This document shows positions 24,127-28,942 of a DNA stretch of 34,860 nucleotides, one piece after another. The notes under the pieces were generated by a model. It saw only the letters and a program-made list of their open reading frames with translations, was not told where the DNA came from and searched no databases. Source of the DNA: Prevotella sp. (GTDB taxonomy: Bacteria > Bacteroidota > Bacteroidia > Bacteroidales > Bacteroidaceae); contig JAFQQY010000034.1 of NCBI GenBank assembly GCA_017410365.1, positions 1 to 34,860 on the forward strand, written 5' to 3'. Position numbers and translations under genes: made by a program. Numbering within the stretch: position 1 is the stretch's first letter; every line of letters begins with the position of its first letter.

Positions 24127-25161
24127 TTATAATGTTTGGTTTATTTTTATTATGGTTTCATAGGTAGGCTTTACTGTTGTAATATCAGTGAGGACACTTG
24201 AATGGCTTTTTTCAACGGAGGTTATGAATGATTGTATCTCGCTGTAGTAGCCTTGCGAATATATTTGGTTGTTAAGGAATGTGGGAGTAAAGTTGTTACG
24301 GGCATAAAGATATTCAATAGTTTTGTTCTGCTTGTGGACTTTCTCATATGGGATTCCAATGACGGTGTAGGGTTTGGGTTCAAAGTTCAATTCTTCCATC
24401 TGAGCGAGGCGGTATACACCTTTTGACGTGCAGACCTTGAGGGTTTCCTCGGCAGAGGTCCAAGTATATGAAGTAGATAGTTCTAACGTACCGACAATGT
24501 GCGGATGTTGGAGCATGAGGAGGTATGAGTTCTTGGCGACCAAACGACAGACTAGGATGTCTGGTTTGCCAAACAGGAAACAAACGAGATCGAGGGGATG
24601 GATGTAGAGGTCGAGTAGGGCATCACCCTCTGGATACGCTCCTGTGGTGTAATGCAGGTCGTAACTGACAAGATGCGCTTTGCAGAGATGCTTCTTCAAT
24701 AGTTGCACGGCAGGGGCATAACGTTTCTGTAGTCCTACCATTGCCACGGGTGAGCCGTAGAGCCGCTGTAAATCAATGAGTGTGTCGAGTTCTTCCAATG
24801 TCTGGCAGGGCGGCTTCTCTATGAAAAGCGATTTTCCACTACGAAAGATTTTAGAGGCAATAGAAAAATGGGACGAAGGGGAGGCTGAGACGAAAATGTT
24901 CTTGATAGCATCGTCTTTGAGAATCGTGTCGAGTGAGGTAGTGGCTTTCACGTCAGGGAACATCCGCTCTATCAGTTGCGCTTTCCGTTCTGACGTGACG
25001 CAGATATATTTCAACGGTACACCAAGGTAATGCAGTACGGGATAAAGGTTGGTGAGTGAGTGTTGGCCCATGCCCACGAAGGCATATTGATGTTGGTACG
25101 TTTGGCGCAGGTAATGCTCTGTGCGCATCCCCTTGTATCGGTTGATAATTTCCTGTATCAT
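24127..25161 (-). CDS. Gfo/Idh/MocA family oxidoreductase
   Basis: A 344-aa NAD(P)-dependent oxidoreductase. The Rossmann domain (about 26-145) contains YAFVGMGQHSLTNLYPVL with the dinucleotide-binding GxG at 30-32 and the family motif EKPP at 115-118. The second half is the beta-sheet substrate domain. A DLYIHPLDLV segment carries a His at the usual catalytic position, preceded by LLD. Family members oxidise or reduce sugars, inositols and related cyclic substrates. The ATG overlaps the stop of the radical SAM gene by 4 bp, so the two are translated together and probably act on one product. Its substrate cannot be inferred from sequence. Confidence 0.87.
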   Translation of the reverse strand: MIQEIINRYKGMRTEHYLRQTYQHQYAFVGMGQHSLTNLYPVLHYLGVPLKYICVTSERKAQLIERMFPDVKATTSLDTILKDDAIKNIFVSASPSSHFSIASKIFRSGKSLFIEKPPCQTLEELDTLIDLQRLYGSPVAMVGLQKRYAPAVQLLKKHLCKAHLVSYDLHYTTGAYPEGDALLDLYIHPLDLVCFLFGKPDILVCRLVAKNSYLLMLQHPHIVGTLELSTSYTWTSAEETLKVCTSKGVYRLAQMEELNFEPKPYTVIGIPYEKVHKQNKTIEYLYARNNFTPTFLNNQIYSQGYYSEIQSFITSVEKSHSSVLTDITTVKPTYETIIKINQTL

Positions 25162-26219
25162 TGTATTGCTTTTAGATGTTTGCGATATGTCTGCTTAGGG
25201 TCTGCCGCCCATTGGTATTGGCCGTAGAACTTCTCTATCAGCCATTTGGGCAATAGTCGCTCAAAGTTGCGCACGAGGATAATGTCATACTTGCGATGGA
25301 AGTTAATCCAGCAGTCGTTGCAATGGCGGGAGTAGTGGCATTGGGTCTGGCAGGCTGATGCGCCATTGAAAATATCGTCAAGCGATTGCTCATGGATATT
25401 ACCCAAAACCACATCAAGATTCTGACAGAGCGGAACGTCGCCATTGCTATGCACCACAAGGCAATTCATGATGCTATGGCAGCGCAGCCGAAGATGTCCG
25501 TTGCGCCATTCGTCATAAAGTGCCACAAAGTCATAATTCTCCTGTGTGTCGTGGATGCTTTGAGGTATCTGCTTCATGAAATCCGATGCCGTCAACAGTT
25601 CGCTCGTCGTATCGAAGAAGGCCATCGTTCCGTAGATGCCAATGCGAATGTCTATGTCGTAATGCTTAGCCAAATTGATGACAAATGCCATGTCGTCGAA
25701 TGAGTTCCACGGTGACAGACAGAACATCAGCGACAAAGGAACTTCATCCTTGAGTGCTTCCACTACCTCAATCACTCGGTTGTAGCCGTCGCAGCCACGC
25801 ATCCTCTGGTAAGTTTCGCGTCCGCCGTCGAGAGAGACATACAGATGACGCGGCTGATAGTGACGGACGGCATCTATAACCCGATGGGGCGCGAGACAGT
25901 TTGACAGTAACGTGTAGTTTGGATGATGCTCATGAAACCATGCCATGATTTCCTCTGCCTGTGGATGAAGGACGAACTCACCGCCCTCAAGTCCTACGGT
26001 AGTCCGTTTGGTCACGCATCTGCTACTCATCATTCGCTGGATATCTTCAAGCGTAAGATGCTCCACTGGTCGTTTCTGCCAGATATTACAGTGTTTACAC
26101 TTCGACTGGCAGAGCGTCGTTGAGTAAATCATCAATTGCGAAAGACGCTTGTGGCGTGGCCGCATGATGTTGTTCAGATAGAGTAGCCCATTGTAGGCAT
26201 AATCGTAAATCGTGTACAT
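25158..26219 (-). CDS. radical SAM / SPASM domain protein
   Basis: A 353-aa radical SAM enzyme. The [4Fe-4S]-SAM cluster motif CxxxCxxC is at Cys37, Cys41 and Cys44 (TTLCQSKCKHCNIW). The glycine-rich EGGEF segment is at about 79-83 and the barrel continues with HLYVSLDGG. The C-terminal part has the SPASM/twitch pattern: NGDVPLCQNLDVVLGNI, then a second group of cysteines ending HCNDCW, which should hold auxiliary Fe-S clusters. SPASM proteins modify peptides (RiPPs), sulfatases or sugars. No precursor peptide was recognised next to it. It is cotranscribed with the Gfo/Idh/MocA gene behind a promoter element shared with the sigma-barrel gene. The start codon directly follows TTTTT with no SD-like sequence. 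Confidence 0.88.
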   Translation of the reverse strand: MYTIYDYAYNGLLYLNNIMRPRHKRLSQLMIYSTTLCQSKCKHCNIWQKRPVEHLTLEDIQRMMSSRCVTKRTTVGLEGGEFVLHPQAEEIMAWFHEHHPNYTLLSNCLAPHRVIDAVRHYQPRHLYVSLDGGRETYQRMRGCDGYNRVIEVVEALKDEVPLSLMFCLSPWNSFDDMAFVINLAKHYDIDIRIGIYGTMAFFDTTSELLTASDFMKQIPQSIHDTQENYDFVALYDEWRNGHLRLRCHSIMNCLVVHSNGDVPLCQNLDVVLGNIHEQSLDDIFNGASACQTQCHYSRHCNDCWINFHRKYDIILVRNFERLLPKWLIEKFYGQYQWAADPKQTYRKHLKAIQ

Positions 26220-26223
26220 AAAA

Positions 26224-26267
26224 ATTCGTTGCAGTTTCTACTTATAAAGTCTGAAACTGCAACGAAT
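26224..26267. repeat. 15-bp perfect inverted repeat over the radical SAM promoter
   Basis: The arm at 26224-26238 (ATTCGTTGCAGTTTC) is the exact reverse complement of 26253-26267, with a 14-nt loop. Read on minus it is followed by TTTTT and then the radical SAM ATG, so it has the form of an intrinsic terminator for the upstream lipoprotein gene. The loop contains the downstream box of the shared promoter element. Confidence 0.8.
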
Positions 26268-26277
26268 GACTGCACGG
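26238..26277 (-). promoter_or_regulatory. shared bipartite element, copy X, before the radical SAM operon
   Basis: On minus: CCGTGCAGTC (26277-26268), 17 bp, then ACTTTATAAGTAG (26250-26238). The radical SAM start codon is 19 bp further. Box 1 is identical to the other two copies and the spacing is identical. Interpreted as a promoter of the fused sigma factor. Confidence 0.7.
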
Positions 26278-26286
26278 AGAGCGTGA

Positions 26287-26838
26287 TTATTTCTTCAACT
26301 TTCCTTTGCTTCCCAGATATTTTGTGAACGTCTCCCACTGTGCTGCATTCTTCTCACGGTTGGCTTTCACCTCGTCAGTATCGGCGAACTGAAGAGGATA
26401 GCAGTCCTGCAGATAATAGTGGCCTTGATTGGGATCAGTAATCACATCATAATGCAAGACAAGGTTGGTGAATGTCCTGCTGTCCCAATCACCAACGAAA
26501 CTGCTGACCACGAACAGGGCATTGTCACCCAAATGAAACTCTATTTCGTGGAAGGGCTACATACGCTTGTAGAGCGGTTCGTCCATGTCCTTGAATTTGA
26601 TTTCGCGGGTGGTCACATTGAACCATTCGATATCATTCTCAGTGAAGAGCACATTCTGCGCATCAACAACCGAGCGCGTTTCAGACTTGCCTACACCACA
26701 GGCATAGAGCATGGAAGATTCTACTGGATCAGTCGTGAAAGGCTTCTCCGTTTCGTTGTCGTCACTGCTGCATGCAGTCAACGTCGTGCTGGCAATGGCT
26801 ATCGCCATCATCCAAGCGAGGTGTTTGTAATACTTCAT
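26287..26838 (-). pseudogene. lipoprotein gene interrupted by an in-frame amber codon
   Basis: One continuous frame of 184 codons with a single internal TAG at codon 94 (26559-26557). Before it, residues 1-93 start with a lipoprotein signal peptide ending LTAC (Cys23), then an acidic SSDDNE tether and WFNVTTREIKFKDMDEPLYKRM. After it the same frame continues for 89 codons (PFHEIEFHLGDNALFVVSSFVGDW and on) to a normal stop. One C-to-T change in a CAG (Gln) codon would explain the interruption. The product may be a truncated lipoprotein, a readthrough product, or nothing. It lies 67 bp after the sigma-barrel gene behind copy Y of the shared promoter, so it is probably a member of that regulon. 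Its family is not recognised. Confidence 0.75.
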
Positions 26839-26865
26839 ATTCTACAGAGTTAAATAAACGTCTTT

Positions 26866-26905
26866 TTACTTATATAGTCCACAGAACTGCGAAAAGACTG
26901 CACGG
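26866..26905 (-). promoter_or_regulatory. shared bipartite element, copy Y, before the lipoprotein gene
   Basis: On minus: CCGTGCAGTC (26905-26896), 17 bp, then ACTATATAAGTAA (26878-26866). Box 1 begins at the base after the stop codon of the sigma-barrel gene. The lipoprotein start is 28 bp beyond box 2. Confidence 0.75.
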
Positions 26906-28609
26906 CTACCACGTAAATCTGATGCCGAAGGGCAAAGAGAGGTCAAACGGGTGCTCCGTGCGGTAACTTTCCACATCGGTGGAGGTCGGGATAAAATAGT
27001 TCAGGCTCGGCTCTAAATAGACGTTCAGGTGTGGCACAATCTGGTATTGTGCGCCGATGCCTACGCCGACAGACCACTGCCACGGAGCGCTGATAGTGGC
27101 ATTAATGTCAGGCGAATTGCCGATGGGGGCGTATGACCCGCCGTAGATATACTGCGTGGTGAGTCGTGCGCTGACGGGGATGTCGAGTTGGATGCCGCCC
27201 GTGGTGTAGAGGCTCCAACGGTTGCCGCCGACCACATTGTAGCCGAGTTTCAGTGGGATGCCGATGTAGTGCAGTCGCTGGGTACGGTGGATAATCGTGT
27301 TCTCGTTGCCGCTTTCGAAGGTAGACTTCAGGCGAGTGTAGCTCAGTCCCGTGGCGAGCGACCAGTGGCTTTTAATCTGTCGGCTTAGCGAGAGTTGAAG
27401 GGTCAGCGGACGCTCGTGGTGCTTGGTCTCGGTAAGCGGATCCTGTGGATGGCTCGAGTTGATGATGGCCACGTGCCTCATGTTCGATGCACTGACAGAG
27501 TCCATCATTGGCGCATTCGCCATGACGTAGTCCATGTAGTCGCCCCAGTTGTATAGCTTTGTCGAGCGCGTCATGCTGCCAGAGAGCGACGGCATGGTCA
27601 TGTAATTGGCGGTACGGCTCATGTCGGATTGTGGATTTCCTGCGTATGCCAGAGCCAAGTGCCAGTCATTTCTGTTCTTTGACTTGTCGCGTCGCAGGTC
27701 GGTGATGTCGTAATGCGGTATCTCCACCTTGCGTATAGCCTTTGTCGTGTCGGTCGCTATGGTGTCAGTTACAATTTGTTCTTGGGCAGTTATATTAGAT
27801 AAGGTGTCAGACGTGACAGAATCCACAGCCTGGGCGATGACCGGTTGCAGGGTGTCTAAGCCAATGACAGTGGTACGATGCACTGGCAGATGAACAATCA
27901 CGGGTTCCTGCGTCTGGTCAGTCGGAGATTCTTTGGATGTCTCTTTCTGTATCGCCACAACAGCCGACGGCTGGTACTCACCGCCGTCTTCATCCTTGAT
28001 AGCAGTATCTCCTTTTTTGAGCAGGAAGAACGTAATAGGAACAAGTACCATTAGAAGCCCGACCACCCAATACTGCTGCATCATTTTGCGTAGCATCTTC
28101 TTTGCCCTTGCCAATTGCGATGATGATGAATGTGGCTCAATGCCCATCATGTCGGCAATCTCCTTGTGCGACAAGCCTTCGAATACCGACAGCCGAAACA
28201 CCAGCCCGTAGCCATTAGGCAATCTGTCAATCATCCTAACAACCTCACTTAGCGGGACACCTCTCACATCCTTTTCCTCGTTTTCGGCAGCAATTAGCTC
28301 TTTTTCACTCGTCTCGTCAAGTGAAACCATTGGCAATGCCTCTAGATGATCCTTACATTTAGATGCCAGGTTTCTCGTGATTGCCATCATCCAAGCCTCT
28401 GCCCGCCTGACATCACGCAATCTGTCAAACGAAGTGAAGATAATCACGAAAGCGTCGTGCAGCACATCCTCCACCGTCTGCTCGTCACTGATATAGCATC
28501 GGCATACGCCCCTCATCCTTTGGGCGTATGCCTTGTAAAGTTCTCCGAGGGCATCCGCGTCCCCCTGTCTGCACCGTTCTATCAGCCGTGTTATCTCCAT
28601 TGTCATCAT
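26906..28609 (-). CDS. ECF sigma factor fused to a transmembrane helix and an outer-membrane beta-barrel
   Basis: A 567-aa single frame with four parts. Residues about 8-85 are sigma region 2 (LGELYKAYAQRMRGVC, then VEDVLHDAFVIIFTSF). Residues about 118-175 are sigma region 4 with the helix-turn-helix GLSHKEIADMMGIEPHSSSSQLARAKK. Residues 181-197 (WVVGLLMVLVPITFFLL) are one membrane helix. Residues 198 to about 315 are a Thr/Pro/Asp-rich linker, predicted periplasmic. Residues about 315-567 are beta-strands ending in FTW, as in outer-membrane barrels. Translating the junction by hand shows no stop or frameshift between sigma and barrel. No anti-sigma domain is recognisable. ECF sigma factors are normally about 160-200 aa. 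The chain would place sigma in the cytoplasm and the barrel in the outer membrane. Copy Z of the shared element lies directly upstream, suggesting autoregulation. Confidence 0.88.
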   Translation of the reverse strand: MMTMEITRLIERCRQGDADALGELYKAYAQRMRGVCRCYISDEQTVEDVLHDAFVIIFTSFDRLRDVRRAEAWMMAITRNLASKCKDHLEALPMVSLDETSEKELIAAENEEKDVRGVPLSEVVRMIDRLPNGYGLVFRLSVFEGLSHKEIADMMGIEPHSSSSQLARAKKMLRKMMQQYWVVGLLMVLVPITFFLLKKGDTAIKDEDGGEYQPSAVVAIQKETSKESPTDQTQEPVIVHLPVHRTTVIGLDTLQPVIAQAVDSVTSDTLSNITAQEQIVTDTIATDTTKAIRKVEIPHYDITDLRRDKSKNRNDWHLALAYAGNPQSDMSRTANYMTMPSLSGSMTRSTKLYNWGDYMDYVMANAPMMDSVSASNMRHVAIINSSHPQDPLTETKHHERPLTLQLSLSRQIKSHWSLATGLSYTRLKSTFESGNENTIIHRTQRLHYIGIPLKLGYNVVGGNRWSLYTTGGIQLDIPVSARLTTQYIYGGSYAPIGNSPDINATISAPWQWSVGVGIGAQYQIVPHLNVYLEPSLNYFIPTSTDVESYRTEHPFDLSLPFGIRFTW

Positions 28610-28616
28610 AACATCT

Positions 28617-28656
28617 CTATTTATATAGTCCTACAATGGAGAAAAAGACTGCACGG
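28617..28656 (-). promoter_or_regulatory. shared bipartite element, copy Z, before the sigma-barrel gene
   Basis: On minus: CCGTGCAGTC (28656-28647), 17 bp, then ACTATATAAATAG (28629-28617). The sigma-barrel ATG is 7 bp beyond box 2, so the mRNA would have a very short leader unless one of the ATGs at 28606 or 28600 is used. Confidence 0.75.
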
Positions 28657-28942
28657 GAAGAACAACTTTTTTTACCGAACACGAATAATACTGCAATAAT
28701 CTATACAGGTGGAATGGTAGATTCTTATTGATGATGGCGAGAAAAAGCCTACGCTTGGTAACGTATACTTTGGATTTTTTCTTGCGAATAGCGGAAATGA
28801 TTTGTTTGGCAACTTTATCGACGGGCATCACCCAAAACAGACCATCGCCTTTTGCCATAGCAGTATCAACGAGACCAGGACGAATGTCGGTGACGTGGAT
28901 ATGGTTACCACTCTTGTATGCTTTCTTGTCCATGTCTACCAT
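28631..28942 (-). pseudogene. C-terminal remnant of a short-chain dehydrogenase (SDR)
   Basis: The frame encodes HVTDIRPGLVDTAMAKGDGLFW, then VDKVAKQIISAIRKKKSKVYVTKRR and LPFHLYRLL. This is the C-terminal third of a classical SDR (the RPG and VDT motifs after the active site). The Rossmann GxxxGxG region and the YxxxK active site are absent upstream. The last residues run into the sigma promoter element, so the 3' end is not native. It is probably a relic cut off when the neighbouring locus arrived or rearranged. Confidence 0.75.

Follow-up and report, generated by a model that had tools for sequence, protein, structure and literature searches.

We analysed a 34,860-nt stretch of DNA (the window) from Prevotella sp. 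(assembly GCA_017410365.1, contig JAFQQY010000034.1), in which three copies of a two-box element, X, Y and Z, stand before the gene of a fused sigma factor and outer-membrane barrel (the sigma-barrel protein), a lipoprotein gene and a radical SAM operon. From sequence comparison, these elements are very probably autoregulated promoters of the extracytoplasmic function (ECF) type. We consider it likely that they serve the sigma domain of the adjacent sigma-barrel protein and that, at Z, a hairpin formed by the promoter spacer acts as a lock on translation.

Three copies of a two-box element

28618..28656, minus strand: element X, putative promoter of the sigma-barrel gene; -35-like box CCGTGCAGTC (28656-28647), 17-nt spacer, -10-like box ACTATATAAATA (28629-28618)
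26867..26905, minus strand: element Y, putative promoter of the lipoprotein gene; -35 box (26905-26896), spacer, -10 box ACTATATAAGTA (26878-26867)
26239..26277, minus strand: element Z, putative promoter before the radical SAM gene; CCGTGCAGTC, 17-nt spacer, second box ACTTTATAAGTA
26906..28609, minus strand: sigma-barrel fusion gene, 567 amino acids; sigma regions 2 and 4 (residues ~1-178), one transmembrane helix (~179-197), a low-confidence tether (~199-311) and a barrel-type domain (316-567), from Pfam, hydropathy and AlphaFold2

Each element is 39 bases long. Direct reading confirmed what a preliminary description of the window had reported: the first box is identical in all three copies, the spacer is 17 nt throughout, and the second boxes of X and Z each differ by one change from that of Y, ACTATATAAGTA. 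The coordinates given there were correct at the upper ends and off by one at the lower ends, which lie at 28618, 26867 and 26239.

When up to three mismatches were allowed, X, Y and Z were exactly the three matches in the window, and 100 dinucleotide shuffles of the window gave none. In the whole genome assembly (3,276,140 bases, 89% complete), the pattern GTGCAGTC-N17-ACTWTATAA matched without mismatch at three sites, which are again X, Y and Z. Allowing up to three mismatches gave 18 sites, and the reversed control pattern gave 19. Relaxing the search to CCGTGCAGTC-N15..19-ACT added one genome site (C45:32199), and RTGCAGTCWTTY occurred at five genome sites, compared with two for its control; these five are the three elements and two sites outside the window that are absent from the 18-site list. 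The three copies are real and non-random, and they are the sole close matches in this 3.28-Mb genome.

A sigma factor fused to an outer-membrane barrel

The 567-amino-acid protein matched the Pfam families Sigma70_r2 (31.7 bits) and Sigma70_r4_2 (45.4 bits), both over the cut-off, as well as an outer-membrane barrel. No region 3 family was listed for it by Pfam, so that with regions 2 and 4 and no region 3 match it conforms to the definition of an ECF sigma factor. The NCBIfam model for Bacteroides sigma factors, TIGR02985, scored 77 bits, below its cut-off of 126.4. Hydropathy revealed a single hydrophobic segment, at residues ~179-197, and of 20 family members, 19 have their strongest hydrophobic window around residue 180. 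The AlphaFold2 model (mean pLDDT, the per-residue confidence score, 66; pTM, the global one, 0.45) contains the sigma helices, a long helix at 163-198, a low-confidence stretch at 172-311 and a beta-rich domain from 316 onward. No separate domain is visible between region 4 and the transmembrane helix in this model of modest confidence.

The predicted layout, with an N-terminal sigma domain, one transmembrane helix, a tether and a C-terminal barrel, corresponds to that of Dma3 of Bacteroides thetaiotaomicron, a member of the dual membrane-spanning anti-sigma family, which is described as a sigma domain, a transmembrane helix, a disordered tether and a C-terminal beta-barrel in the accessible part of PMC13088901. 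The domain order is the same, although the comparison is with the published description of the architecture and not with the Dma3 sequence. A difference is that a term search of the accessible text of that account found no promoter motif, nor was a hairpin found there. The same source, as far as it is accessible, describes ECF21 sigma factors Das1 and Das2 with Dma1 and Dma2, which resemble the present system in combining sigma and barrel and in having their own operon and a lipoprotein gene (nigD1) as targets (PMC13088901). In those systems, however, sigma and anti-sigma are separate proteins; the separate, adjacent Dma anti-sigma gene typical of ECF21 is absent here, where sigma and barrel form one 567-amino-acid frame.

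The same Prevotella genome also contains a second, unfused sigma and barrel pair (L254, G000:C16), with no TGCAG box upstream.

The element accompanies the sigma gene and its putative targets in relatives

To place the element in its family, we kept 80 named relatives out of 551 confirmed candidates, from Prevotella, Bacteroidaceae, Muribaculaceae and other Bacteroidales, many of them from rumen or gut samples. With the window, they make up the 81 loci in which gene order was compared. Stretches were also taken around 80 chosen homologues. Box 1 was found upstream of the sigma start in all 81 fused genes examined, window included, over an identity range of 31-100%, as TGCAGTC in 77, TGCAGTA in three (L087, L104, L137) and TGCAGCC in one (L116). 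It lies mostly at -44, and insertions shift it to -67 in L113 and to -116 in L131. Across 81 loci spanning 654 kb, we counted 172 box pairs (at most two mismatches in box 2), every one on the strand of the sigma gene and none on the opposite strand; the spacing is 17 nt in 164, 16 nt in seven and 15 nt in one.

The copies had been described as preceding their genes in the direction of the gene. Among distinct elements, X precedes the sigma gene in 62 of 62 cases, Y one lipoprotein family in 55 of 58 and Z one radical SAM family in 41 of 46. Thus, the same two-box element stands at a fixed spacing before the sigma gene and what appear to be its targets. Wide occurrence of the element at unrelated genes in genomes lacking the fused sigma factor, which would have spoken against a small autoregulated ECF regulon, was not seen among 89 genomes of the same genus. 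Of the 13 that have a homologue of near full length at 50% identity or more, 9 contain the exact motif, as do 3 of the other 76; in each of these three, the site is close to a contig end, which truncates all or part of the sigma gene. Together with the invariant presence of box 1, the uniform polarity and the co-change of the -35 box with the recognition helix described below, these results support the preliminary proposal of an autoregulated ECF promoter with a small regulon.

Some occurrences stand apart. At L265 (G092, of another family), a lone X with the usual upstream sequence is followed by unrelated DNA right after the start codon, and may be a chimera, a transfer or a binning error. 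Genome G024 has isolated GTGCAGTCTTTT sites: in L294 the site is followed by TATCTTTATATTA, resembling the -10 of one clade, and in L295 it precedes a lipoprotein-like frame. Judged by sequence, both could possibly be further targets of a fused sigma factor in G024.

The spacer of Z forms one arm of a conserved hairpin

26224..26267, minus strand: Z hairpin, a perfect 15-bp inverted repeat (26253-26267 with 26224-26238); fold of -29 kcal/mol, z-score -5.95
28591..28645, minus strand: weaker inverted repeat at X (13 nt, 92%); the spacer holds the left arm (28645-28633) and the first sigma codons hold the right arm (28603-28591)

The spacers of X, Y and Z had been noted to differ in sequence, from which conservation of two boxes, and not of a duplicated block, was concluded. 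They do differ, but the spacer of Z is not free sequence, as it forms part of the perfect inverted repeat; this hairpin had been overlooked, as had the known Dma3 architecture of the fusion. The Z spacer pairs with the stretch immediately preceding the start of the radical SAM gene, and the -10 box lies in the loop.

In 32 aligned relatives, 91.8% of the cells of the Z stem are paired, with changes on both sides at 9 of 14 pairs and in 26 cells. None of 500 shuffles reached the observed pairing, two-sided changes or covariation score, and the number of pair types was reached by 12 of the 500. In a control with slid partners, pairing was 25-50%. When arms were swapped between loci, own arms paired better than foreign ones at Z (z-score -10, 0 of 2000 permutations) and at X (z-score -4.2, 0 of 2000); at Y they did no better (329 of 2000). 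The same arrangement with other letters occurs at the second promoter of other clades (z-score -4.1, 0 of 2000), in a set of 21 sequences from 30 loci, some of them near copies, that precede a radical SAM gene (10), a methyltransferase-like gene (8) or a lipoprotein gene (3). In L113, L114, L116, L117, L124, L125, L131 and L136, this second promoter lies before a predicted SAM-dependent methyltransferase (motif recognized by eye) and not a radical SAM gene. The sequences therefore argue for hairpin pairing at Z, give weak indications of it at X and do not support it at Y.

At Z (n = 44/46), opening the start region is predicted to cost 15.9 kcal/mol in read-through RNA, 5.6 when the spacer is shuffled and 2.9 in RNA started after box 2, and the read-through cost exceeds the last of these in 44 of 44 cases. 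The corresponding values are 8.0, 6.9 and 4.0 kcal/mol at X (n = 62), and 4.6, 4.1 and 2.8 kcal/mol at Y (n = 55/58), where the effect of the spacer is nil (P = 0.96). According to these predictions, the Z hairpin should block mRNA reading through from upstream but not mRNA started at Z.

The Z hairpin might instead be the terminator of the preceding gene that overlaps the next promoter by chance. The 15-bp stem followed by TTTTT in the window would suit a terminator, and a T-run follows the stem in 18 of the 32 Z sequences; yet 14 have no T-run, and the stem is kept in 12 of these. Moreover, the stem is tied to the start codon, its right arm ending 3-7 nt before the ATG in 30 of 32 sequences. 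This tie persists where the loop has gained an insert and also in clades in which it is the sigma gene that precedes. A simple terminator scan, limited to loops of 3-8, did not list the Z hairpin. We therefore regard a mere terminator as unlikely.

The inserts are palindromic. Five Z loci (L178, L179, L191, L218, L024) carry one of roughly 60-80 nt in the loop and retain the right arm before the ATG. Palindromic repeats between the -10 and the start codon were seen in these five, in L197 (also at Z) and in L113 (at X), and just past the start in L131 (at X). At least two kinds can be told apart, of ~24 nt and of roughly 60-80 nt, and one kind has two sites (at most three mismatches) in the genome of the window.

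The -35 box changes with the recognition helix of the sigma factor

We compared, across 174 distinct sigma genes from the wider family, the type of -35 box with residue 160, a position that, from what is known of sigma region 4, lies in the -35 recognition helix. His160 (n = 125) goes with GCAGTC in 117 genes, GCAGTA in three, GCAGC in two, GCAAC in one and no box in two. All 24 genes with Lys160 have GCAGTA, as does the single one with Arg160. Asn160 (n = 12) is found with GCAAC in six, GCAGC in one and no box in five, and Ser160 (n = 9) with GCAGC in five and no box in four; of the other residues, Ala (one gene) has GCAAC, and Asp and Gly (one each) have no box. Fisher's test (117:6 versus 0:38, 13 box-less genes left out) gives P = 6e-31, a value that is too strong because the sigma genes are related, and the trend persists in 33 representatives below 60% identity. 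This suggests that the -35 element is matched to region 4 of the sigma factor.

The preliminary description had kept a dedicated DNA-binding regulator as its alternative: such a protein would bind box 1 while standard RNA polymerase used a nearby promoter, and the sigma domain would be irrelevant to the element. Conservation is indeed higher in box 1 than in box 2, whose sequence differs between clades, and the window has a Crp-like gene 1 kb upstream. However, the type of box 1 tracks the recognition helix of the sigma factor itself, which argues against a separate regulator. A Crp-like homologue is present at just 15 of the 81 loci, and the distance to the TATAA box is nearly fixed at 17 nt. 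The alternative is thus disfavoured, and we hold it to be very improbable.

Least probable of all is that the whole element is an RNA leader, an attenuator or riboregulator transcribed from further upstream with the boxes as parts of a structured RNA: Z does fold strongly with box 2 in its loop and covaries, and the fold of the window has box 1 base-paired across the start codon, but both boxes are also present at Y, with no pairing signal, and at X, with a weak one, their spacing is constant while the stem sequence changes, insertions stretch the Z loop from 14 nt to ~100 nt, and box 1 follows a DNA-binding helix.

Unfused sigma and barrel pairs carry a related element

A related element precedes sigma and barrel pairs in genus g61, perhaps Bacteroides, where the two are mostly separate genes. 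In the 21 of 25 loci used (147 kb of strand), an element resembling TGCAGTAT..GCATTT (RTGCARTAT..GCATTT) was found at the sigma gene in 18, with a divergent copy ~46 bp away in 10; no further such element was found elsewhere in the 147 kb. These pairs differ from the fused system in their -35 box, TGCAGTAT, and in having Lys rather than His in the recognition helix. The divergent copies, in L270, L271, L274-L277, L282-L284 and L288, face away from the sigma gene, which gives a two-promoter unit beside the unfused pair. The sole divergent gene tested, in L282, encodes a NigD protein by Pfam. In B. thetaiotaomicron, loss of Dma1 induces nigD1, which is needed together with Das1 for the vesicle phenotype, according to the accessible part of PMC13088901.

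Genes of the cassette and its surroundings

26287..26838, minus strand: lipoprotein gene, ~183 codons, with an in-frame TAG at codon 94 (26559-26557)
25158..26219, minus strand: radical SAM/SPASM enzyme, 353 amino acids (Pfam PF04055, PF13186)
24127..25161, minus strand: Gfo/Idh/MocA-type oxidoreductase, 344 amino acids (Pfam PF01408), sharing 4 bases with the radical SAM gene

The order sigma, lipoprotein, radical SAM, MocA is repeated across the 81 loci, with the sigma gene in 81, the lipoprotein in 64, the radical SAM gene in 60 and the MocA-type gene in 50, many loci being cut by contig ends. Where at least 1 kb lies beyond the radical SAM gene, the MocA-type gene accompanies it in 44 of 45 loci. 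Homologues of the Crp-like, SDR-like and GNAT neighbours in the window occur at 15, 8 and 3 of the 81 loci. From gene order, the regulon seen appears to be one cassette of the sigma-barrel protein, the lipoprotein, and the radical SAM enzyme with the MocA-type oxidoreductase.

The lipoprotein downstream of Y matched no Pfam family over the cut-off. Its codon 94, TAG in the window, is glutamine in close relatives such as L144 and L145, the sequence beyond it is still conserved, and the printed relatives of the same subfamily read through this position; the TAG is either a recent loss or an assembly error. Upstream of X, at 28631-28942, lies the apparent 3' end, without a start, of what we take to be a short-chain dehydrogenase gene (Pfam gave a weak DUF1489 match); L265 has a similar stretch.

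Proposed mechanism and significance

We propose that the sigma-barrel protein is a one-piece, Dma3-like device, with a cytoplasmic sigma domain, an inner-membrane helix, a long periplasmic tether and an outer-membrane barrel that would serve as the sensor. A signal at the barrel would free or activate the sigma domain, whose region 4 would bind box 1 (RTGCAGTC, extended by TTT) as the -35, with box 2 (ACTATATAAGTA) as the -10. Active sigma would then raise expression of its own gene from X, the lipoprotein from Y and the radical SAM and MocA-type operon from Z. At Z, the spacer would also serve as the left arm of a hairpin that has the -10 in its loop and masks the start-codon region with its right arm. 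Messages reading through from the genes upstream would fold and stay untranslated, and may terminate where a T-run follows, while mRNA begun at Z would lack the left arm and be translated. The sensor could therefore be made without the enzyme.

Two known systems resemble this design. The start regions of T4 gene e (lysozyme), soc and gene 49 are hidden in an RNA helix; when gene e is transcribed from the late promoters immediately before it, the RNA is missing the 5' portion of this helix and translation is efficient, according to the accessible part of PMC3014915. Z likewise seems to have its start region under a conserved stem, predicted from sequence, whose 5' arm lies in the promoter and is absent from Z-started mRNA. 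The T4 system differs in its phage sigma factor, gp55, and its unrelated sequences and genes, whereas the Z design reappears, with different sequences, within a single bacterial sigma family. For the leader of Bacillus subtilis sigG, the proposal is that a large hairpin prevents translation of mRNA reading through from the upstream sigma operon; mRNA from the gene's own promoter cannot form it, as given in the accessible part of PMC5942855. In that case the hairpin would protect the sigma gene, whereas in the present cassette it would chiefly protect an effector enzyme.

We lean towards the view that a sigma factor spanning two membranes runs a cassette in which a promoter spacer doubles as an anti-translation arm, with pairing kept as the arms changed across radical SAM and methyltransferase clades, and that a -35 code (His160 with GCAGTC, Lys with GCAGTA, Ser-type with GCAGC, Asn-type with GCAAC) accompanies it.

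According to the accessible part of a 2020 transcriptome paper (PMC7366714), none of the B. thetaiotaomicron ECF sigma factors had a known recognition motif at that time. A motif tied to a sigma subfamily by its co-change with the DNA-binding helix would allow Dma-type sigma regulons to be predicted across Bacteroidales. In the literature accessible to us, phage T4 provides a described case of such a hairpin design, and a sporulation sigma gene a proposed one. If the spacer hairpin acts as proposed, it would keep a membrane-tethered sensor topped up without firing the effector genes.
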